A stretch of DNA of 42,726 nt from IMG/VR virus record IMGVR_UViG_3300025044_000049, positions 1 through 42,726 of that record. One strand, 5' to 3'. Within the stretch, counting starts at the first letter, position 1, and every line of letters starts with the position of its first letter. The notes under the pieces were generated by a model. That model searched no databases and was not told the origin of the DNA. It was given only the letters and a program-made list of their open reading frames with translations. Below are positions 1 through 42,726 of this stretch, one piece after another. Source of the DNA: a virus. The position numbers were made by a program, and so were the translations under genes.

Positions 1-1485
1 CTATGCGAGCTCCTGATACTGCTTTTCCAGCTTTTTCAGGCGTTTTTTACCTACCCCACCCAAGACTTCTATGGCATGACGCAATCGCGCTCTGCTCATA
101 TCTGGGCCTAACACTTCCATCGAATCAACAACTGAGATCGACGAAGTTGTACCCGCAATAGCGATAAACAATGGCGGCATAAAATCCTTTAACTTGATTC
201 CCAAGCCATCGGCCAAGGATTTCACCTCTGCGAAAATTCGATCACGCTGCCAATCATTTAACGATTCCAAGCGCCACGCCGCGCACTGCAACAAGGTGAC
301 TAACTCTTCTTCACTTAGACTTGAAGCGGCGAAGCTCGCGGGAGTAAGCGGCAACATACCCGACAAAAAGAACGCCGCCAACGGTGCCATATCGCTAAAC
401 ACTTCAATTCGGGACTGCACATGCGGCAGCATTTTCATTAACGTCTCGCGGTTAAAGGCCCACTCTTGCATACGATCCGCCAACTGCTCAAGACTGCAAT
501 CTTCACGAAGCCACAAGCCGTTTAGCCAGCGCAGTTTTTCAACATCGAATATCGGCCCACCCAAACTCACTCGGGTGATATCGAAGTTGTCGATCATGGT
601 TTGCAGACTGAATTTCTCGCTTTCATCAGGCATCGACCAGCCCATGCGGCCTAAATAATTCAACAGCGCCTCGGGCAGGAAACCCATGCGTTGGTAGTAC
701 CAAATACTGGTCGGATTTTTGCGTTTACTGAGCTTGCTTTTATCGGGATTTCGCAACAGGGGCAGATGGCATAACACCGGCATTTCCCAGCCAAAATACT
801 CATACAGTAATTTGTGTTTAGGGGCAGAATTAATCCACTCCTCACCGCGCAGCACATGGGTGATCTGCATCAAGTAGTCGTCGACCACGTTTGCCAAATG
901 GTAGGTCGGCAAGCCATCAGATTTTAAAAGGATCTGGGCATCTACCTGCCCCCACTCCAATTCAATTTTACCCCGCAGCATATCGTCAACTTCGCAGCGG
1001 CCATCGTCCTCAGGCACGTGCATTCGAATCACATAAGCATCACCAGCCGCTTCGCGACGCGCATGCTCAGCATCGTCTAATTTCAGATCTGAATACTTTA
1101 GAGCGGTATGCCCGCCTGCCTCGCGACGGGCTTCACGCAGCACATCCAATTCTTCAGCTGTCCTGTAGCAGCGAAAGGCATGTCCGGCAGCAATAAGTTG
1201 TTCACAATGCGCTTTGTAAATTTCACTGCGTTCGCTCTGGCGATACGGCCCGTGCGGCCCACCAACGTCTGGGCCCTCTGCCCACTCTAAACCCAGCCAG
1301 CGCAGTGAATCCAAAATCGCCTGCTCAGACTCTGGAGTAGAACGCTGTTGGTCGGTGTCTTCTATGCGCAGCAAAAACTCGCCACCTTGGCTTTTCGCAA
1401 AACAATAATTGAACAGTGCAATATAAGCCGTGCCTACATGCGGGTCACCGGTGGGCGAAGGAGCAATACGAGTGCGAACAGTCAT
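1..1485 (-). CDS. gltX: Glutamyl-tRNA synthetase (complete)
   Basis: Class I aminoacyl-tRNA synthetase that charges tRNA(Glu) with glutamate in the cytosol. The first ATP-binding signature appears as HVGT at residues 16-19 after the family's usual N-terminus (TRIAPSPTG), and the second as KLSKR at about residues 251-255. At 494 residues it matches bacterial GluRS length. The start at 1485 is chosen because family members begin [13 protein letters not shown]; the in-frame extension to 1512 adds nine residues with no homology and no ribosome site. This is a host gene and marks the chromosomal side of the window. The gene ends exactly at the window edge with a TAG stop, so it is complete. Confidence 0.97.
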
Positions 1486-2035
1486 GGAGTGTTTATTACC
1501 ATTTGAATACAATAGACATTTAGCCTCACATCAATTTGCGTGAGCGGGCCATTCAGGCCGCCATTATACGTGCCGGACGAGGCAAGATTCACCCACCCGC
1601 AGAGGTATTTCGCGGCAGATGCACAAAAAATTACTTAATCGCCGCTTTTGCGTCGCCCCCATGCTGGACTGGTCTGACCGAAATTAATTTTTATTTAAAA
1701 TCAATTACTTACAAAATTATAAAAATAAATTGAAGCAAATTTTAAGCACATACTTTAGCTTCCGGCGAGTAAAACGCGAGTTTACACCCACCAGTTAGCC
1801 AAATATTGGATTTTCGATTGCTTTATTTAGGGGTCGGGTTTAATAATCGGGATATCAAAAGGCAATTACAGGGAGGAAGGATTAGCGCGAAGTGTTTAAA
1901 AAGATGGCCCCTTTCAGAAAGGGGCACAGGTTCTTGGGATCTCGCCGTCAAACCAGACCCAAGGTATTACAACGGAATCATAGCCAATCAGGATGCGGTT
2001 GGCTACTTTTCCTTCAAATATCGGAGATTCACTCG
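1486..2035. other. Intergenic stretch upstream of gltX, no convincing gene
   Basis: No tRNA, rRNA or well-supported protein gene is visible here. It holds an AT-rich run (about 1680-1740) and a perfect short hairpin (GCCCCTTT at 1907-1914 against AAAGGGGC at 1918-1925). Two overlapping open frames (1806-2042 and 1892-2164) lack ribosome sites and look like decayed or chance coding. The phage/host junction may lie between here and about 2440, but only one attachment half would be inside the window, so it cannot be identified. Confidence 0.5.
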
Positions 2036-7429: not shown

Positions 7430-9970
7430 TTAGGTGGTAAAGGTTATTGCGGTGGCGAAGGTAAGTTCGCTGCGGTCGCTACTCCAGGTGTCGTAAGCGG
7501 CTGCGCATAGGTAGTAGGTTTCGGCTAGGTCTAGGCCGGTAATATCGCCGGCTGGGTCTGTGCCGCTGTAGCCCACGGTGCCTTCGGTATTTGGGTCAAA
7601 ACCTGAGTCAGTGGAGTAAACGAAGACGTAACCCGCGGCGTCTGTTGCGCTGCTGGCATCGCAACTTACAGATGCGGTCATCAGCGTTACCATCGCGGCT
7701 GTTCCTGTGACGGCAGCAGGCGCGGTGTTGGTCACGGTTATTGATGTTGGTGCGGCGTTGCCGGCGGCGTTGCGTTCTACAATTTCAATTTTGTAGCTGC
7801 GTTTTACTGCGCCATCTGTAACCGCATCATCACGCAGATAGCTGTATGCAGTGCTGGTGGTGATGACTTCTCGCAGTAGCGCATCAGTATCGGCCCTGCG
7901 AATGCGCACCAATCTGTCTTCTGCGCGGGCACCCGCCGCCCAGCTAACGGTAAAATAGATGCTTTCAAACGCGCCGACTAGTGCTAAGTTTTGAGCTTGG
8001 CTAGGGGCTACCTTTTCCGGTGACAACAACACGCTGTAGGCGGTTACATCTGCCAGATCTTGCAGGGCGCGACCGTACACATTAAAAGAGCGAAACTTTA
8101 ACCAGACGGTGTCGCCAATTTGATCTTCTGCATAGTTTTGTTTCCACACAGCATCATCCAAACGCACAAACGGTGTTTCGGCAGCATGGGCACTATTTGC
8201 CGTGCTTAGTCTGCCTCTGCGCAAGTACTCAAGGTCGTATTCACCCAAGCCCGTGATGGTTGAATCGCGGTAGCTCAGCAGCTCGCCACCTACCCAGCAT
8301 AGCGTTGAGCCAGCATCTGCCTCGGCAGTGGTCGCGGCGGTGAGTTCTGCAAAGGTGGTTAACTGAACTGACAGGGTATTGGCTTCGTCCGGATCCGCAC
8401 CGGCTAGCAATTCTTCTGTGAGCTCACCGTATCGCGCTGGTCCATATATCGCGCTCAACAAGCGATAACTATCACCGTCGGTACTGCCCCATACTTCGCA
8501 GCCACCCCAGGCATTAGTTTGGCCTGCAACTGCAACCCAAACTTGATGCTCACCCGTTAATAGCAGGCTTTCTGGCGGATTAAAAATAACGGGGGCAATA
8601 ACATCACCAGGGTCAGCATTTTGGTTGCTTTCGAAACCGCTAGCGCTTTGCACCGGGTAACGCTGTGCACTGCCCACACCGAGTAAGGCATCTTCAGCGA
8701 CAACGGTTAATTTGCCGTTGTCGTCTTCTTCAACAGATATGAGCCGTACTAGGTGATCATCCAAGCCCAAGCCCGGTTCTGTAATGCTGACTAAGTCCAT
8801 TGCTTCAAGCAGCACATGCTGCCAGCCCAATGCAAACTCATATTCGTTACGCACATAGAGTTTGCGCTGTACTAGCAGCTGGGAAATATGCGCTGCTATT
8901 TCAGCATCGCAAATTTCATAGGCTTTGATGGTGTCCATTGGCCGCAAGCCGAATTGCTCTATCGCGGCTTGGTCTGCCGCTTTGGCCACATCGGTATTGT
9001 ATTCGTGATTGCGGTCTAAAAATTCAAGTGAGACTTCGTTATAACTATCGGCACTGCTGCGGATTTTAACGGTAACCGGTGGCTCGCCTTCCGCCGGCAA
9101 ATAGTCGTCTAAACCAAGCGATGCAACCGGCGTATTGTCTGGCGTCCAAGTGGTGCTGTTGCCGGTGACTTCTTCATCACCATAGGGGATGATTTTTAAT
9201 TTACCGCCAGACCACACCATTTCGCTGTTGGTCAGTGTCATCCACCGAGACAGCACCTCACTTGCCGGGGTTTGCTCATCTAATACAGGGCTAAGCAATA
9301 AGCCTTCTGCCAGGCAGTAATCTTGGTAGTCACTTAAATCTGCGATCCACAAAGGGTCAAAGCCAACGCCGCTCATAGGGTCAATTAACAACGCGGGAAT
9401 AAATACGCCGGGGTTAGCATCTGGCAGGCCGCTTACTTGATATGGGCCATCCACCTCAAACGTATGGTTTGGCACACCGGCATTGTCGTTAAGCAAATAA
9501 TCACTGGCGTAGACATAGGCTGTATCTGAGTACGCCAGTGCCTCTAAAGGATGATTAGTCTCTAAATAACCCCACACCGGCTGATCGCGCTCACCTGATG
9601 CAAAGTTAAGACCTATCTGCGCCAAGGCGGTGATGGGAAAGCCAGGTATTAACTCAATGGTTTCAAACACTTCTTTATCGCGAAATACTCGGCGCACACC
9701 TTCCAGCTCGCCCACGCCCAAACCTAAAATAATAGAGGCATAATAGGTGTAGGTAGTATCTCTTTGAGTCACCCCGCCGCCACCTTTACCACCAGACTTC
9801 TTTTTGGTGGTGTGCGCTACCGCTTCAAAATCGGTGTAGTAAATAAGGTTTGGACTAATGCGACCGCGCCCAGCCAACCACACAATGGGGCTACCACTTG
9901 CACTACGCTGCACTTGCAGGGCATTTATGCGCGGAGCGCTTGTCGAGATTGTGCTGCTACTCCCCCCCAT
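7430..9970 (-). CDS. Tail tip/host-specificity protein (gpJ-like)
   Basis: An 846-residue central tail-tip protein. The N-terminus carries a Gly/Lys-rich loop (KKKSGGKGGGG, about residues 57-67) followed by TYTYYASIILGLGVGEL, typical of the phage tail-hub J family. The C-terminal third has fibronectin-III-like repeats (for example YKIEIVERNAAGNAAPTSITV, and the last about 90 residues). The protein closes the tail tip and contacts the receptor. Its start overlaps the NlpC/P60 gene's end by 14 bases. The order peptidase, J-like protein, fibres is the lambda tail-tip order. Confidence 0.88.
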   Translation of the reverse strand: MGGSSSTISTSAPRINALQVQRSASGSPIVWLAGRGRISPNLIYYTDFEAVAHTTKKKSGGKGGGGVTQRDTTYTYYASIILGLGVGELEGVRRVFRDKEVFETIELIPGFPITALAQIGLNFASGERDQPVWGYLETNHPLEALAYSDTAYVYASDYLLNDNAGVPNHTFEVDGPYQVSGLPDANPGVFIPALLIDPMSGVGFDPLWIADLSDYQDYCLAEGLLLSPVLDEQTPASEVLSRWMTLTNSEMVWSGGKLKIIPYGDEEVTGNSTTWTPDNTPVASLGLDDYLPAEGEPPVTVKIRSSADSYNEVSLEFLDRNHEYNTDVAKAADQAAIEQFGLRPMDTIKAYEICDAEIAAHISQLLVQRKLYVRNEYEFALGWQHVLLEAMDLVSITEPGLGLDDHLVRLISVEEDDNGKLTVVAEDALLGVGSAQRYPVQSASGFESNQNADPGDVIAPVIFNPPESLLLTGEHQVWVAVAGQTNAWGGCEVWGSTDGDSYRLLSAIYGPARYGELTEELLAGADPDEANTLSVQLTTFAELTAATTAEADAGSTLCWVGGELLSYRDSTITGLGEYDLEYLRRGRLSTANSAHAAETPFVRLDDAVWKQNYAEDQIGDTVWLKFRSFNVYGRALQDLADVTAYSVLLSPEKVAPSQAQNLALVGAFESIYFTVSWAAGARAEDRLVRIRRADTDALLREVITTSTAYSYLRDDAVTDGAVKRSYKIEIVERNAAGNAAPTSITVTNTAPAAVTGTAAMVTLMTASVSCDASSATDAAGYVFVYSTDSGFDPNTEGTVGYSGTDPAGDITGLDLAETYYLCAAAYDTWSSDRSELTFATAITFTT

Positions 9971-37767: not shown

Positions 37768-38045
37768 TGCCGTTTGCCACATACCGCGGAACCAACGATG
37801 AAGACGGAAAGTTTCTAAAGCTGAATCACCCCGGCCACAGACACTTTCGGTACCGCGTAAATATGTGGGTAGAAACACCAACCGGCGCACGCCTAACAGA
37901 CGACTACACCAGCAAACGACCTTGCCGGCCGAATGACTTGCTAGAGCAAACCATCACACCAGCAGTAGACAAATTAATTAACGAAGCCAAGAAAGAATAC
38001 GGCGGCGTAAGTCGCTACGGCTTCAATTGTTATAAATGGGGTTAA
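37764..38045 (+). CDS. Hypothetical protein after cupin gene
   Basis: A 93-residue protein starting at tandem ATGs that overlap the cupin stop. It is rich in aromatic and basic residues (GHRHFRYRVNMWVETPTGARLTDDY ... EYGGVSRYGFNCYKWG). Neither family nor function is recognised. Genes 37249-38045 are evidently co-translated. Confidence 0.55.
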   Translation: MMPFATYRGTNDEDGKFLKLNHPGHRHFRYRVNMWVETPTGARLTDDYTSKRPCRPNDLLEQTITPAVDKLINEAKKEYGGVSRYGFNCYKWG

Positions 38046-38049
38046 CAAA

Positions 38050-38364
38050 ATGCATTTGTTAGAAGAAGTAAAAGCAAAAATAATATACCTCAGCTCCTGC
38101 ACTGCAGCTTACCTGTTAGCGCACGCGGCGTGGTCAGCCTGCGACCACCGCAAACTACCAGGGCCAAGCGTATTGCAACTCAGCGCAGCACTAGATCACT
38201 CAAATAAAGAACTTATCAACCAGCTGCAGCGCATAACTGACCAGCCAGACTACAGCAACCGCGACCAAGCAGAAATGCTCCGCTGGCTTAACGACCACGG
38301 CTATACCGCCTACATCGCAAAGCAACTCAAAACCACTAAAAATAAATTAGTGGACTGGAGCTGA
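38050..38364 (+). CDS. Hypothetical protein before methyltransferase
   Basis: A 104-residue protein, helical throughout (VKAKIIYLSSCTAAYLLAHAAWSACDHRK ... AEMLRWLNDHGYTAYIAKQLKTTKNKL), with a mildly hydrophobic N-terminal helix at 10-27. The last 40 residues could be a small DNA-binding helix bundle. There is no recognisable family; its ribosome site is weak and it may depend on translation of the gene upstream. Confidence 0.5.
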   Translation: MHLLEEVKAKIIYLSSCTAAYLLAHAAWSACDHRKLPGPSVLQLSAALDHSNKELINQLQRITDQPDYSNRDQAEMLRWLNDHGYTAYIAKQLKTTKNKLVDWS

Positions 38365-38366
38365 TC

Positions 38367-39953
38367 ATGAATCTCAACACCCAGTACCAACTCAACTACG
38401 CCAATAAAATTCGTGTGGATCTGTTCGCTGGTGGCGGCGGCGCGTCTATCGGCACCGAAATGGCTACCGGTATGCCGGCTGATATTGCCGTTAATCACAA
38501 TGACAACGCCATCAGCATGTATCGCGTCAATCACCCGCATACTAAGACATTTCAGTGCGACGTTTACGAAGTAAAACCACACGAAGTAACCCAAGACAGA
38601 GGCGTGGCACACTTGCATGCAAGCCCAGACTGCACCCATCACAGTCAAGCAGCAGGCGGCCAGCCTCGCAGCAAAAGTAGCCGGTCATTGTCTTGGGTAA
38701 TTGCTATGTGGGCAGGTCAAGCAAAGCCCGACCTGATCACTATGGAAAATGTAAAACAGATCAGAAATTGGGGGCCACTGATTGCGAAGCGATGCAAAAT
38801 GACAAAGCGCGTGATTAAACTAGACCGCAGTGTTGCTGCGCCAGGTGAATACGTCCCCGTTGACCAACAATTTTTAGTGCCAGACCCAAAACGCAAGGGT
38901 AAAACATGGCGCCGTTTTATTCAGCACTTAAAACGCTTAGGGTATGACGTAGAGCATAATTTATTAGTCGCTTGCGACTATGGTGCCGCCACCAGCCGTG
39001 AACGTCTTTTTTTAGTTGCACGCTGCGACGGACAGCCTATATGCTGGCCCGAGCCAACACATTTTAAAAACCCAAAACGCGGTCAAAAACGCCACCGCCC
39101 CGCATCAGATCACATCGACTTTTCACTGCCGTGCTCATCAATTTTTGATCGCGAAAAACCCTATGCCGACGCGACGTTGCGCAGAGTAGCCAAGGGCGTC
39201 ATCAAAGAAGTACTGAACTCTGCCAACCCGTTTATTGTGCCGATCGCAAACTGGTCCAACGAAGTGATCCACAATATCAACGACCCGCTACGCACCATTA
39301 CCGCTCAACCAAAGGGCGGCAGCTTTGCCGTGGTGGCGCCAACGCTTGTTAAATTCCGCGCCGATCATATCGGTCAGCGCATTGATGAGCCATTACCGAC
39401 GATAACCGCTGGCGGTAATAGCAAACGCCCTGCAGGCGCGCCACATGCACTGGGGCTAGCTTGCGCAAACCTCATCGAACTTAGACATAATTGCGATTCT
39501 CGATCAGTAAATAGCCCGCTATCAACCGTAACAACTAGCGGGGGTCACCACGCTTTAATCGAATGCACCCTATCGCAAGACGTGATTGAAGAAAAAGCCC
39601 TGCGCGTGGCTGCATTTTTAATGTCTTATTACGGCAGTGGGGGCAACGCCTCATCACTACACGACCCAATACCCACCATTACCACCAAAGACCGCTTGGC
39701 CCTTGTGACGGTTCACTTTGGTGACACGTCGCTGATTCTCATCGATATATGTTTACGAATGCTGCAACCAAAAGAACTGTATGGCTGCCAAGGCATGCCC
39801 AGCAATTTTATATTTGACCGCGGACACGATGACCGCCGCTTCACAAAATCAGCCCAGGTAAAAATGGTAGGCAACAGCGTTTCGCCCTACCCAATGGCCG
39901 CACTTGTTCGCGCCAATCTGCCAAGCACCTCAATGCTAAGGATCGCAGTATGA
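38367..39953 (+). CDS. DNA cytosine-5 methyltransferase
   Basis: A 528-residue C5-methyltransferase. Motif I is VDLFAGGGGASIG (17-29), motif IV SPDCTHHS with catalytic Cys 89, motif VI ENV (127-129), motif VIII TSRERLFLVA (209-218), and a motif X-like KMVGNSVSPYPMAALV ends the protein. Motif IV reads PDC instead of PPC/PCQ, as in a known phage/plasmid subfamily. Residues 305-440 hold four copies of a 'DPLpTITa' repeat in the target-recognition part. It probably protects phage DNA from host restriction; no partner endonuclease is visible. GGAG lies seven bases upstream of the ATG. Confidence 0.9.
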   Translation: MNLNTQYQLNYANKIRVDLFAGGGGASIGTEMATGMPADIAVNHNDNAISMYRVNHPHTKTFQCDVYEVKPHEVTQDRGVAHLHASPDCTHHSQAAGGQPRSKSSRSLSWVIAMWAGQAKPDLITMENVKQIRNWGPLIAKRCKMTKRVIKLDRSVAAPGEYVPVDQQFLVPDPKRKGKTWRRFIQHLKRLGYDVEHNLLVACDYGAATSRERLFLVARCDGQPICWPEPTHFKNPKRGQKRHRPASDHIDFSLPCSSIFDREKPYADATLRRVAKGVIKEVLNSANPFIVPIANWSNEVIHNINDPLRTITAQPKGGSFAVVAPTLVKFRADHIGQRIDEPLPTITAGGNSKRPAGAPHALGLACANLIELRHNCDSRSVNSPLSTVTTSGGHHALIECTLSQDVIEEKALRVAAFLMSYYGSGGNASSLHDPIPTITTKDRLALVTVHFGDTSLILIDICLRMLQPKELYGCQGMPSNFIFDRGHDDRRFTKSAQVKMVGNSVSPYPMAALVRANLPSTSMLRIAV

Positions 39954-40228
39954 AAACCCTATTCCTACTCATGGCTCAATACAACGGCCAAGCAATCATA
40001 CCGCTGGCCACCATCTGCGCGGACTACTTCAGCCACCTCACACCCGAAAAAATGCAGCGCAAAGTGCTGGGCGGCGAAATAGACCTACCCATCACCCGCA
40101 TAGAAGGCAGCCAAAAAGCCGCCAAGGGTGTGCATTTAGAAGACCTGGCCAAATACCTAGACGACCAGCGAGAAAAGGCCATCACAGAGAATGACAAACT
40201 GCATGGCCGTTATGAGAGGGCATCATGA
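39950..40228 (+). CDS. PrtN-like regulator (pyocin-activator family), copy 2
   Basis: A 92-residue PrtN-family protein. The opening (TLFLLMAQYNGQAIIPLATICADYF) and the core (MQRKVLGGEIDLPITRIEGSQKAAKGVHLEDLAKYLDDQRE) are the family hallmarks. PrtN binds P-box promoter DNA and activates pyocin genes after DNA damage; phage copies are common near methyltransferases and early-left ends. It overlaps both neighbours by four bases (ATGA). Confidence 0.85.
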   Translation: MKTLFLLMAQYNGQAIIPLATICADYFSHLTPEKMQRKVLGGEIDLPITRIEGSQKAAKGVHLEDLAKYLDDQREKAITENDKLHGRYERAS

Positions 40229-40572
40229 TACCAAGCAAAATTGAGAGCCTTGTAGAAGCTATTTACCTAGAAGCACAAACACAAGCTTTGGCCAAACTGC
40301 AAGAATCGGAAGCCTTTTGGGAGCAACTAGAAATCGCCACCAAAAAACGGTTAGAAAGAACTTGGTTCTTTTTCTGCAAAGACGTCAATGGCGAGCCAGA
40401 GCTTTATATCTGCCCAGGCGATAGTGGCGATCCGGATGAAGCTGTAACTGTAAGCTTTGCAGAAATGGTAGAGCGCGAGTTATCCGAAGACCCTGAGCAC
40501 TTAGAATTTGTTGCAAAAACACTAGAGAGCGCTGCCCTGAAGTTTCGCGAAAAATTGAGGATTAATAAGTGA
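40225..40572 (+). CDS. Hypothetical early-left protein
   Basis: A 115-residue acidic protein, mostly helical (ESLVEAIYLEAQTQALAKLQESEAFWEQLEIATKKRLERTWFFF ... VSFAEMVERELSEDPEHLEFVAKTLESAALKFREKL). The core strand pair (FCKDVNGEPELYICPGD) is the only beta element. No family is recognised. Its TGA overlaps a GTG start of the next frame. Confidence 0.55.
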   Translation: MIPSKIESLVEAIYLEAQTQALAKLQESEAFWEQLEIATKKRLERTWFFFCKDVNGEPELYICPGDSGDPDEAVTVSFAEMVERELSEDPEHLEFVAKTLESAALKFREKLRINK

Positions 40573-40808
40573 CTAAAAAAGCTTGCGTTGTTATCTGCGG
40601 CGGCCCGTCCAACGACGATGTGCAACGCGTAGTAGCGGCATTATCGGAGCACCGTATAGCGATGCAAGACGAAGTGAACTCGATGCGGGAGTTTAAGATC
40701 ACACCGCACCCTCCCGTCGATATTGAATATGTTTCACCGCGCACAACCGCTCCAGCATACGGGCCGAAAAAGAAGCGTGGCAAGGGCAACAAGTACCATA
40801 GAGTTTAA
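40569..40808 (+). CDS. Small hypothetical protein, last gene before cassettes
   Basis: A 79-residue protein starting at GTG 40569, overlapping the upstream stop, with GAGG nine bases before. The sequence (CVVICGGPSNDDVQRVVAALSEHRIAMQDEV) opens like a small Rossmann-type strand-loop-helix; the C-terminus is basic (GPKKKRGKGNKYHRV). The stop TAA is also the start of the first attC-like site, so this is either a phage gene captured at the cassette border or the first cassette gene. Confidence 0.5.
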   Translation: MTKKACVVICGGPSNDDVQRVVAALSEHRIAMQDEVNSMREFKITPHPPVDIEYVSPRTTAPAYGPKKKRGKGNKYHRV

Positions 40809-40878
40809 CCTTGCGTGTAAGCGGTGGCGAAGCCATCCGTCGCAGTGAAACGAAGCGAAATTAATACGGTTGTTATGG
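40803..40878 (+). repeat. attC-like site 1
   Basis: Begins GTTTAAC at the stop codon of the upstream gene and ends TTGTTATGG. The ends fit the RYYYAAC/GTTRRRY frame loosely (3' core GTTATGG has mismatches). The inside is an imperfect GC-rich palindrome. It separates the 40569 gene from the DUF3850 gene. Confidence 0.5.
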
Positions 40879-40885
40879 TGGATTT

Positions 40886-41152
40886 ATGAAGCGACACAAC
40901 TTGAAGATATTAAAACAGTATTACGAACAGCAGGTTGCTGGGATTAAAAATTTTGAGTTACGACGGCTGGACAGAGATTTTAAAATTGGCGATGAAATCA
41001 AGCTAAATGAGATCGCCCCTGCTGAAAAACTTGGCGAATATAAGCCGACTGGAAACTCTTGTTTGCTTCGCATCACTTCGATAGTTGCAGGGTTTGAAGG
41101 GCTTGAAGATGGTTACGGTATCCTTGGAACTGAACTGGTGTACGCACCATAA
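40886..41152 (+). CDS. DUF3850 (ASCH-like) protein, cassette gene
   Basis: An 88-residue protein that matches the DUF3850 family: KRHNLKILKQYYEQQVAGIKNFELRRLDRDFKIGDEIKL, the typical opening, and LRITSIVAGFEGLEDGYGILGTEL, the closing strand. DUF3850 has an ASCH/PUA-like fold that probably binds RNA or modified nucleotides; the substrate is unknown. It lies alone between attC-like sites 1 and 2, as a one-gene cassette. Confidence 0.8.
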   Translation: MKRHNLKILKQYYEQQVAGIKNFELRRLDRDFKIGDEIKLNEIAPAEKLGEYKPTGNSCLLRITSIVAGFEGLEDGYGILGTELVYAP

Positions 41153-41209
41153 CCCTGAGCACACGGGCGAGCACGCAGTGCGAAGTCCGCGTGCTGTGAG
41201 TTGTTATGA
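41150..41209 (+). repeat. attC-like site 2
   Basis: Starts TAACCC at the upstream stop and ends TTGTTATGA. Inner arms AGCACACGGGC (41158-41168) and GTCCGCGTGCT (41185-41195) pair with two G-T/A mismatches. The arms are repeated almost exactly in site 4. Confidence 0.6.
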
Positions 41210-41223
41210 ATACGGAGAAAAGC

Positions 41224-41508
41224 ATGGAATACCAAGAGATTATGTGGGCAGAAGCAAAACCCGATATTTACGGTGGCGATAACTGCGACCAGATTGAACC
41301 GCGCTGGGAAGCCTACGCGGACGGTGATATGGATTCAGACACTTTTGATCACCCGATTGAGCTTTGCTGCAAAACATTCCCGCCCGGCACAAAAGTGACT
41401 GTTTCTGTGCCCTGCTGCCCTGAGTGCGGACAACAGGTGGAAATGTGCCGCACCGATGATGGATGCGAATTCGACTGGGACGAGTGGGTGCAGAACGAGT
41501 ATTCATAA
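41224..41508 (+). CDS. Hypothetical cassette protein with Cys-rich C-terminus
   Basis: A 94-residue acidic protein (EYQEIMWAEAKPDIYGGDN...). Its C-terminal third has a possible zinc site (CCPECGQQVEMCRTDDGC). ATG 41224 has GGAG six bases upstream, inside the preceding attC end; ATG 41206 is a weaker start. No family is recognised. Confidence 0.6.
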   Translation: MEYQEIMWAEAKPDIYGGDNCDQIEPRWEAYADGDMDSDTFDHPIELCCKTFPPGTKVTVSVPCCPECGQQVEMCRTDDGCEFDWDEWVQNEYS

Positions 41509-41555
41509 CCATTTTATTCAGAAGCCGGAGGTCTGGCTGCAATTGTTTGTTAGCT
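41506..41555 (+). repeat. attC-like site 3 (short)
   Basis: A 50-base site: TAACC at the stop, arms AAGCCGGA (41522-41529) and TCTGGCT (41532-41538), and TTTGTTAGCT at the end. The 3' core GTTAGCT is the closest here to the GTTRRRY consensus. Much shorter than its neighbours, as is normal for attC variation. Confidence 0.5.
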
Positions 41556-41568
41556 GCGGAGGCTGGTA

Positions 41569-41769
41569 ATGCCAATAAAATATGAAGTAAGGCAGAGTGT
41601 TGAATCTGTAAATAAAAGATGGCAGGAAGTTGTTGCGGTTGAGGTTAATGAGCGACTAGGAATGCAGACATTTAAGCGATTAAGTAAAGAGAATCCAAGC
41701 GAATATTTTGAGCTTGTTGAAGTGGAGCAAAAAGAGCGCTGCATACATTTCACAAAAGCAAGCAGCTAA
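41569..41769 (+). CDS. Small hypothetical cassette protein
   Basis: A 66-residue protein (KYEVRQSVESVNKRWQEVVAVEVNERLGMQTFKRLSKENPSEYFELVEVEQKERCIHF), strand-helix-strand in pattern, with GGAGG close upstream of ATG 41569. No family is recognised. It is the only gene between attC-like sites 3 and 4. Confidence 0.6.
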   Translation: MPIKYEVRQSVESVNKRWQEVVAVEVNERLGMQTFKRLSKENPSEYFELVEVEQKERCIHFTKASS

Positions 41770-41833
41770 CCCTTGAGCACACGGGCAAGTGAAGCGCAGC
41801 GTAACGCAGTCCGCGTGCTGTGAGTTGTTAAAA
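41767..41833 (+). repeat. attC-like site 4
   Basis: Begins TAACCC at the stop; inner arms AGCACACGGGC (41776-41786) and GTCCGCGTGCT (41809-41819) are identical to those of site 2. Ends TTGTTAAAA. The shared arms with a different loop show common ancestry, not chance. Confidence 0.6.
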
Positions 41834-41848
41834 AGGCCGGAGACGGAT

Positions 41849-42049
41849 ATGACTGAGCAAGAATATTTTGATGATCTTGATGCCAGTGACGGAGTGATTG
41901 GCGAATGGCGAGAGTGCTGGAAGTGCGGTGGCGAGGGAGTGAGCGACCATGACTGCGGCGAGGACACGTGCTGCTGCTTTATGCCGGAGGATAACGTGCA
42001 GTGCGACATCTGCGACGGAAACGGCGGCTGGTACATAGAGGCCGTTTAA
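41849..42049 (+). CDS. Cassette protein with CxxCxGxG zinc-type motifs
   Basis: A 66-residue protein with two DnaJ-like zinc motifs, CWKCGGEG (about 25-32) and CDICDGNG near the end, plus an acidic cysteine cluster between (CGEDTCCC). The Cys spacing resembles the DnaJ central domain or DksA-like small zinc proteins. The start at 41849 with GGAG six bases upstream is chosen; the frame to 41789 would run into attC site 4. Confidence 0.65.
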   Translation: MTEQEYFDDLDASDGVIGEWRECWKCGGEGVSDHDCGEDTCCCFMPEDNVQCDICDGNGGWYIEAV

Positions 42050-42116
42050 CCCGCAGGACAGCGCGTGAGGAATGAAGCGCAGCGTAATGACGATCCGCTG
42101 CTACTGATTGTTAAAA
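42047..42116 (+). repeat. attC-like site 5
   Basis: Begins with GTTTAAC overlapping the upstream stop (42044-42050) and ends GTTAAAA (42110-42116). The inner GACAGCG and CCGCTGCT arms pair imperfectly. Confidence 0.55.
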
Positions 42117-42132
42117 AGCTTTGCGAGGAAGT

Positions 42133-42477
42133 ATGACAGACAAACCCATTAGGCCAGCAGCAAGCTACGCGCTGCTTATGCCGGAACTGACCGCAGCAGT
42201 GAAACCGCTTGGTTATGCGCTGACACTGCACGGCTCTTTGTGCCGCGATCTCGACTTAGTTGCTGTGCCGTGGGCCGAAGATGCCGCCGAACCGCAAGCC
42301 GTAGTAGATGCAATTACCGCAGCGATTGGCGGCTGGCAGCTACACAAAGAACATGAGCCCGCGATTAAACCCCACGGGAGAATGGTTTACTCAGTGCATT
42401 TTAGAAACGTAACGGGTACGAGCTTGCCGCAAGGTCACCCGTACATTGATCTTAGTGTGATGCCGAGGGCTTTTTAA
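42133..42477 (+). CDS. Nucleotidyltransferase-like small protein, cassette gene
   Basis: A 114-residue protein. GYALTLHGSLCRDLDLVAVPWAEDA (about 28-52) carries the GS...DxD pattern of nucleotidyltransferase-like folds, and PHGRMVYSVHF ... PYIDLSVMPR completes the fold. This family occurs in phages and accessory regions; activity is unproven. ATG 42133 has GAGG upstream. Confidence 0.65.
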   Translation: MTDKPIRPAASYALLMPELTAAVKPLGYALTLHGSLCRDLDLVAVPWAEDAAEPQAVVDAITAAIGGWQLHKEHEPAIKPHGRMVYSVHFRNVTGTSLPQGHPYIDLSVMPRAF

Positions 42478-42534
42478 CCCCAATTAGCAACGGACGTAGC
42501 GAAGCGGAGTTCCGCTTGCCTGATGTTGTTAGTG
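42475..42534 (+). repeat. attC-like site 6
   Basis: Begins TAACCCC at the upstream stop and ends TTGTTAGTG. Inner GCAACGGA and TCCGCTTGC arms pair imperfectly. A further cassette gene follows at 42562. Confidence 0.55.
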
Positions 42535-42561
42535 TGCGGCCAACTACGGAGGGAATAAACA

Positions 42562-42726
42562 ATGTTGATTTGTATTTTGATAGGTGGTTTAGCGATGTTT
42601 TTTGCCGGGACGGCGGCGCAGAAATATCAAGACACGCACAATGCTCAGTGGGCAACCACAACGGTGATTGAGATGGCAATTGGTGGATATTTCTTAATAG
42701 CGGCGATTGGCGCACAAGCACACTAA
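42562..42726 (+). CDS. Small two-segment membrane protein, cassette gene
   Basis: A 54-residue protein, too short to be obvious, with CGGAGGG upstream of ATG 42562. It has two hydrophobic segments (LICILIGGLAMFFAG and VIEMAIGGYFLIAAIGA) joined by a polar loop. It ends with TAA at the last base of the window, so it is complete. No family is recognised. Confidence 0.6.
   Translation: MLICILIGGLAMFFAGTAAQKYQDTHNAQWATTTVIEMAIGGYFLIAAIGAQAH

Follow-up and report, generated by a model that had tools for sequence, protein, structure and literature searches.

The right end of a virus record in IMG/VR (IMGVR_UViG_3300025044_000049; its whole stretch of 42,726 nucleotides is called the window here) contains six imperfect palindromes that separate small genes. 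By their structure and by the self-complementarity of the cassettes between them, these palindromes are real integron attC sites, and all of them point opposite to the gene strand. The record is that of a temperate phage of a marine, Zhongshania-like bacterium, and the right arm of this phage, which as read from the sequence is inserted in the 5′ end of dusC, probably carries a cluster of attC sites lacking an integron integrase (CALIN). This cluster would be flanked by the excisionase side of the early operon and by the phage integrase gene (int), with reversed cassettes favored by selection and shared as a pool. At least two attC sites in a phage genome, together with the lack of an integron integrase, define a phage CALIN, and this combination is found here. 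An initial annotation had noticed the palindromes from the letters alone; its observation is confirmed and its interpretation partly supported, and it missed the reversed polarity of the sites.

On the plus strand, each of the six sites starts with the TAA stop codon of a plus-strand open reading frame (ORF), followed by C, and ends in TTGTTA, and the small ORFs between the sites are all on the plus strand, as had been annotated. The base preceding TTGTTA is G, G, T, G, A and G in sites 1 to 6, respectively, so that the annotated ending, (T/G)TTGTTA, describes five sites and is wrong for site 5. Sites 2 and 4 share both arms, again as annotated, with 13 nt (TGAGCACACGGGC) and 23 nt (AGTCCGCGTGCTGTGAGTTGTTA) in common. 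The array is set out below with scores under R1, a covariance model of 22 chromosomal attC sites whose training included no window sequence, and with the length of the complementarity between the two ends of each cassette (self-match).

40803..40878, minus polarity: attC site 1, the weakest; R1 5.9 bits on minus, 2.7 on plus; missed at E ≤ 1 by R3, a model described below
40872..41153, plus strand: cassette 1, DUF3850 protein, ORF 40886-41152; DUF3850 E 2e-18, phrog_986 E 4e-21; self-match 9 nt
41147..41209, minus polarity: attC site 2; R1 21.5 bits on minus, 4.4 on plus
41203..41509, plus strand: cassette 2, cysteine-rich, ORF 41206-41508; phrog_24515 E 4e-15, 5 phage records; self-match 11 nt
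41503..41555, minus polarity: attC site 3; R1 8.7 bits on minus, 5.0 on plus
41549..41770, plus strand (gene strand not proved): cassette 3, ORF 41569-41769; self-match 9 nt; no convincing relative
41764..41833, minus polarity: attC site 4; R1 18.7 bits on minus
41827..42050, plus strand: cassette 4, cysteine-rich, ORF 41843-42049; self-match 6 nt; no family or phage-record match
42044..42116, minus polarity: attC site 5; R1 19.0 bits on minus, 2.8 on plus; sequence close to sites in the arrays L305 and L312 (below)
42110..42478, plus strand: cassette 5, ORF 42133-42477; phrog_35913 E 5e-19, 43 phage records; self-match 10 nt
42472..42534, minus polarity: attC site 6; R1 15.6 bits on minus
42528..42726, plus strand: cassette 6, ORF 42562-42726; self-match 10 nt, assuming that C follows

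The summed self-complementarity of the six cassettes is reached by 1 of 720 pairings, which is the true one. As a control, 52 cassettes from intI-linked arrays of the host group, selected at a self-match of 7 nt or more and with ORFs under 40 aa not counted, display self-matches of 7-12 nt, and same-site comparisons give 4-6 nt in 51 of the 52. When R1 is applied to both strands of the whole 42.7 kb, its best four matches are sites 2, 5, 4 and 6; limited to the array, its best six matches are the six sites, with weak scores for sites 1 and 3. The annotated attC gene cassettes are thus borne out by cassette self-complementarity and by the ranking of the covariance model, a search that the annotation had itself proposed. 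Conversely, a model built from the six window sites alone (R2) matches 29 attC sites in 24 sources; chromosomal integrons account for 28 of them and the phage M16-3 integron for the other, and all 29 matches are in the orientation defined by intI. Compensatory changes occur in 6 of the 14 pairs of the fitted alignment, which leans towards its structure.

Less regular is the GTTRRRY core at R′, which is present in two of the six sites on the minus strand and in none on the plus strand, and from which chromosomal sites of the group deviate too. The annotation was right that the 3′ cores depart from this consensus; on the plus strand they looked wrong in part because the sites point opposite to the genes. 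Folding each site alone as DNA gives energies short of significance (z from -1.9 to +0.2). Scanning simply for complementary arms from AAC onward failed to detect attC sites, since an unpaired spacer precedes the arms of attC, and a stricter banded scan recovered part of the window array only.

Several comparisons establish the polarity of the sites. R1 scores higher on the minus strand for all six and yields at most 5.0 bits on the plus strand. In a reference set of 218 attC sites from 37 loci, with direction set by the neighboring intI, 179 sites have AA after AAC at their 5′ side and none has it at the 3′ side, and in all six window sites this signature is on the 3′ side of the plus strand. 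An orientation classifier based on ten positions, evaluated by leaving out one locus at a time, is correct for 215/218 reference sites and assigns 6/6 window sites to the minus strand. By eye, site 6 also has an extra base in its minus-strand 5′ arm, as in proper attC. It could be that the sites belong to a diverged attC subfamily in normal orientation and that the polarity is an artefact, since the packing of plus-strand ORFs looks canonical (stop at TAAC, start just after GTTA) and the reference sites come from one order. However, the covariance model, the classifier and the reciprocal model are concordant; without its first two positions, the classifier keeps sites 2-5 on the minus strand (site 1 becomes plus and site 6 about zero); and 10/10 sites of L312 and 6/8 of L305 have their AA signature on the gene-opposite side. 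Such an artefact is considered unlikely.

Genes that oppose their attC sites are a minority in the reference arrays. Among 144 reference cassettes from across the order (those with a self-match under 8 nt and ORFs under 60 aa being left out), the longest ORF is in the attC direction in 133 and reversed in 11, and 40 of 43 cassettes in the host-group subset have genes in the attC direction. The longest ORF is opposite to attC in 26 of the 28 closed cassettes of four arrays: 4/5 in the window, 6/7 in L305, 9/9 in L312 and 7/7 in L314. This count leaves out ORFs under 40 aa and does not use an 11.6-bit hit in L314, which was included in the separate analysis of that locus. In the window, three of the six plus-strand cassette ORFs have PHROG matches at E<1e-14, indicating phage-type cargo, and four minus-strand ORFs that were tested have no match below 0.09; cassettes 3, 4 and 6 lack convincing homologues, so that only three of the six genes are proved to be on the plus strand. 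The search of viral contigs for related loci returned no relatives of the cassette-2 protein.

The features to the left of the array are as follows.

1..1512, minus strand: gltX, host gene left of the prophage; Pfam tRNA-synt_1c E 6e-104; protein 99% identical to that of Zhongshania aquimaris
1619..1680, no strand assigned: first ~60 nt of dusC, host side of attL; similarity to Z. aquimaris locus L084 stops at 1680
38367..39953, plus strand: phage DNA methyltransferase upstream of the array; phrog_116 E 2e-83; 40% identity to the L305 homologue, which has a similar place
39950..40228, plus strand: excisionase/PrtN-type gene, normally beside the phage integrase; phrog_1300 E 1e-31; int follows in relatives
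40225..40572, plus strand: phage gene, function unassigned; ORF with no match in the phage collection
40569..40808, plus strand: final phage gene ahead of the array; without Pfam or PHROG match

Positions 11479-9800 of L084 correspond to window positions 1-1680 at 95.7% identity, and dusC starts at L084 position 9861. The remainder belongs to a tailed temperate phage with terminase, protease, tape measure, primase, repressor, methyltransferase and excisionase genes; no phage integrase is identified in the window. In the GTDB genus of the host, named here the Zhongshania/Spongiibacter group (it also holds Spongiibacter and Neomelitea genomes), gltX is adjacent to dusC in 16 of 18 genomes, and the other two contain an insertion between these genes, which in one case is a sister prophage with int adjoining dusC. 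The sister prophage L195, at the same dusC site, and the virus contig L012 both have an excisionase, accessory genes, an integrase and dusC in this order. The window array occupies the place of the accessory genes, and its integrase should therefore be beyond the right end; both int and an attI-like end probably lie just past 42726. With regard to dus association, the window contains the start of dusC, with int outside and the right end cut off. The record stops at the TAA of cassette 6, which places the far attC of that cassette outside it.

Some further observations concern this locus and its surroundings. In Zhongshania antarctica (L086, ~7723-9959), an insertion of ~2.2 kb lies between gltX and dusC, at the prophage site. 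A window gene at 37222-37767 matches phrog_4786 (named cysteine dioxygenase); related genes are found in L312 and in the S. marinus prophage. The window has no matches in Rfam or tRNA scans, and a search of phage and plasmid collections gave no DNA similarity to 40569-42726.

The initial annotation had allowed either that the prophage abuts a chromosomal integron or that the phage carries the cassettes. IntI scores above its curated cut-off in 14 of the 18 host-group genomes and the window stops inside the array, as might be expected if the prophage merely abutted a host integron. This arrangement is nevertheless highly improbable: the attachment site is dusC, next to which relatives carry gltX and no integron, the two exceptions having their insertion at that very place; sister prophages have int next to dusC after the accessory genes; the window attC type differs from the chromosomal one (GGGTTA versus GCGTTA); and R3 finds no chromosomal array at E ≤ 1e-6 in 381 genomes, whereas other prophages carry one. 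The cassettes belong to the phage, given that its insertion point, the 5′ end of dusC, is without an integron in relatives, and they do not lie in a neighboring chromosomal integron. The second annotated possibility, which also gains from the four records described below, is thus upheld, and comparison with the uninterrupted locus, another check suggested by the annotation, helps to separate the two. A phage might instead have captured a piece of a host chromosomal integron, for which the accessible text of Qi et al. 2023 (PMC9892861) provides a precedent in Vibrio anguillarum phages. This origin is improbable here, given that the 28 closed-cassette ORFs and window cassette 6 have no similarity (E ≤ 1e-3) to the chromosomal arrays that were fetched, that the attC type differs, and that reversed genes are so infrequent among the reference cassettes.

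Reversed arrays recur beside or around a phage integrase in four other prophage or virus records. A search with R2 over 115 genomes led to a 25-kb contig of Spongiibacter marinus DSM 17750 (genome G009, locus L305), in which a methyltransferase, a small gene in the excisionase place, a small-gene array and a phage integrase follow one another; R2 identifies seven attC sites there and R3 eight, all opposite to the genes. G009 is also the sole match of a family search in 21 genomes. A motif scan led to IMG/VR record 3300047667_001335 (L308/L312), with eight attC sites by R2 and ten by R3, again all opposite to the genes. All nine of its cassettes have self-matches (9-11 nt), and the array is followed by a short gene and then an integrase 67% identical to that of S. 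marinus. R3 is based on an alignment (A5) of 20 rows, 19 of them from the window, L305 and L308, which contains one probable false hit (window 9383-9419) and from which site 1 of the window and one L305 site are missing. None of the sites in L314 and L315, nor the additional ones in L305 and L312, contributed to the training of R3. Across 381 genomes of the order, at E ≤ 1e-6, R3 matches G009 and G303 only, and no chromosomal array. G303 (L314) has eight sites scoring over 16 bits around an integrase, all of them opposite. In the same locus (8466-9464), the attC array region encloses the integrase and the small gene before it, as though the integrase were cassette-borne.

The fourth record, IMG/VR 2786546845_000005 (L315), has a 71% identical integrase and, in the same slot, two attC sites that are both opposite to the genes. 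On the side of the excisionase-like gene, the two blocks closest to the array have 97-98% identity between L305 and L315; around int the figure is 86%, and between those flanks the two share nothing (3.0 kb versus 1.6 kb). Similar flanks with different interiors show that the array has been replaced in this phage lineage, either whole or cassette by cassette. A methyltransferase precedes the array in the window (38367-39953) and in L305 (4766-6274) and is apparently absent from L315, the flanks being otherwise near-identical. The attC sites of the site-5 type are nearly alike across records, while cassette proteins have no strong similarity between arrays or to chromosomal arrays, a combination that favors a pool shared among phages.

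Other searches define how far these arrays could be traced. Among 90 sources (88 of them virus or sister-prophage loci), R1 has matches at E ≤ 1 only in the positive controls, L221 and L225. The exact motif CGTGCTGTGAGTTGTTA occurs in none of the viral contigs and none of 390 genomes, and CCGCTGCTACTGRTTGTTA in none of the viral contigs; TAACCCGCAGGACAGCG occurs in three viral stretches; the occurrence in L308 is real, and no attC site is detected in the other two, L307 and L309. A scan for self-matches gives no clear chain in H101 and ctTUS972 and a short one in P12002L. In the last of these, a lytic Polaribacter phage (L288), two attC-like sites at 38038-38933 have AAC then A on the 5′ side of the plus strand; its annotated genes run on the minus strand, and so its cassettes may also be reversed.

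No match to IntI is found in the window, which is cut off at its right end, or in L305, L306, L312 and L314, and L315 contains one weak 24-aa hit inside its own int. The initial annotation would have counted a lack of attC hits and of a nearby IntI against an integron; IntI is indeed not seen in the phage, but 14 of the 18 host-genus genomes carry one. Beside int in L305 is a GTTRRRY-like end, seen by eye only, that could represent attI; that of the window would lie beyond 42726. In Zhongshania marina (L194, 738-1947; G002:C25), intI is interrupted by a ~270-base insert that has inverted ends and resembles a small non-autonomous transposon.

IntI fixes the direction of an inserted cassette by the polarity of its attC. 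Probably, the integron integrase of the host folds the single strands of attC and inserts or excises cassettes in the phage, in which case attC polarity would dictate how each insert is oriented with respect to the phage. That polarity would point away from the int end and against the phage early transcript, so that only gene-reversed cassettes would be expressed and kept: a normal cassette captured here would be antisense, whereas the phage operon would read a reversed one. Selection acting on host-driven exchange would thereby yield uniform reversal and let phages share a pool of reversed cassettes with small phage accessory genes. The left junction is consistent with such an insertion, as the end of the gene at 40569-40808 supplies the TTAAAC of a perfect GTTRRRY core (G|TTAAAC, R′ of site 1, minus strand). 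Alternatively, the phage's own tyrosine integrase might move the cassettes, as could be surmised from arrays that end beside int in L305, L312 and L315 and from the int within the array region of L314. There is little probability of this, however, since the integrases tested are ordinary (PF00589, with a weak arm-binding match in L305) and are not IntI by the TIGR02249 cut-off, and the L314 integrase has no detectable similarity to that of L305.

Set against a phage-borne, selected array of reversed cassettes moved by IntI are several points. Site 1 is weak, and the reference attC sites and the classifier depend on a single order. In cassette 3 of the window, the longest ORF is 66 aa on the plus strand versus 67 aa on the minus strand; and in L315, where just one of two cassettes has its longest ORF opposite to attC, that of cassette 1 is in the attC direction (94 versus 88 aa). 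Self-matches are absent from one interval in L305 and several in L314, where sites were probably missed. The window ends before int, which leaves the int end of the array outside the record. Finally, a recombinase for the cassettes can only be presumed, as the five records contain neither IntI nor a proven attI, and the nearest host genome, that of Z. aquimaris (G001), has no IntI above the cut-off.

Whether marine gammaproteobacterial temperate phages keep their own mirror-polarity cassette pool near int, shuffled by host IntI or by an unassigned recombinase, appears evenly balanced. If such a pool exists, accessory genes of lysogens would be replaceable one cassette at a time and still be read by the phage operon. 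The arrays represent a source of accessory-gene turnover in phages that can be tested directly, and they are a natural case of attC polarity opposed to gene direction, useful for testing what sets cassette orientation.

Clusters of attC sites carried by phages are already known. According to the accessible text of Qi et al. 2023 (PMC9892861), 10,705 phages include 17 CALINs and four carriers of an integron or intI, and five of six phage attC sites were active with IntI1. As described there, phage CALINs resemble the window in having attC cassettes without an integron integrase and small genes of unassigned function. In TJE1 and the M16-3 integron, genes run in the attC direction, whereas those of the window are opposite and the array occupies a recurrent slot near int. 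The sedentary chromosomal integrons of the Zhongshania/Spongiibacter group share attC structure and cassette self-complementarity with the window but differ in their attC type, in the presence of intI and in genes that are mostly in the attC direction. Prophages associated with dusA and dusC, as covered in the accessible portion of Farrugia et al. 2015 (PMC4482086), insert in the 5′ end of dus and have a PrtN-type gene, as here; in that portion, integrons appear only as a recombinase family or for comparison, and accessory genes are not described as cassettes. The literature covered, which comprises few subscription papers and includes the accessible parts of PMC9892861, PMC4482086 and PMC8946536, yielded no report of uniformly reversed arrays or of a slot near int. 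What appears to be new is the reversed polarity, along with the recurring slot close to int and the attC type that the records share. Phage attC sites have so far looked like scattered captures; the slot, the shared type and the near-uniform reversal point instead to an established partnership between phages and integrons.

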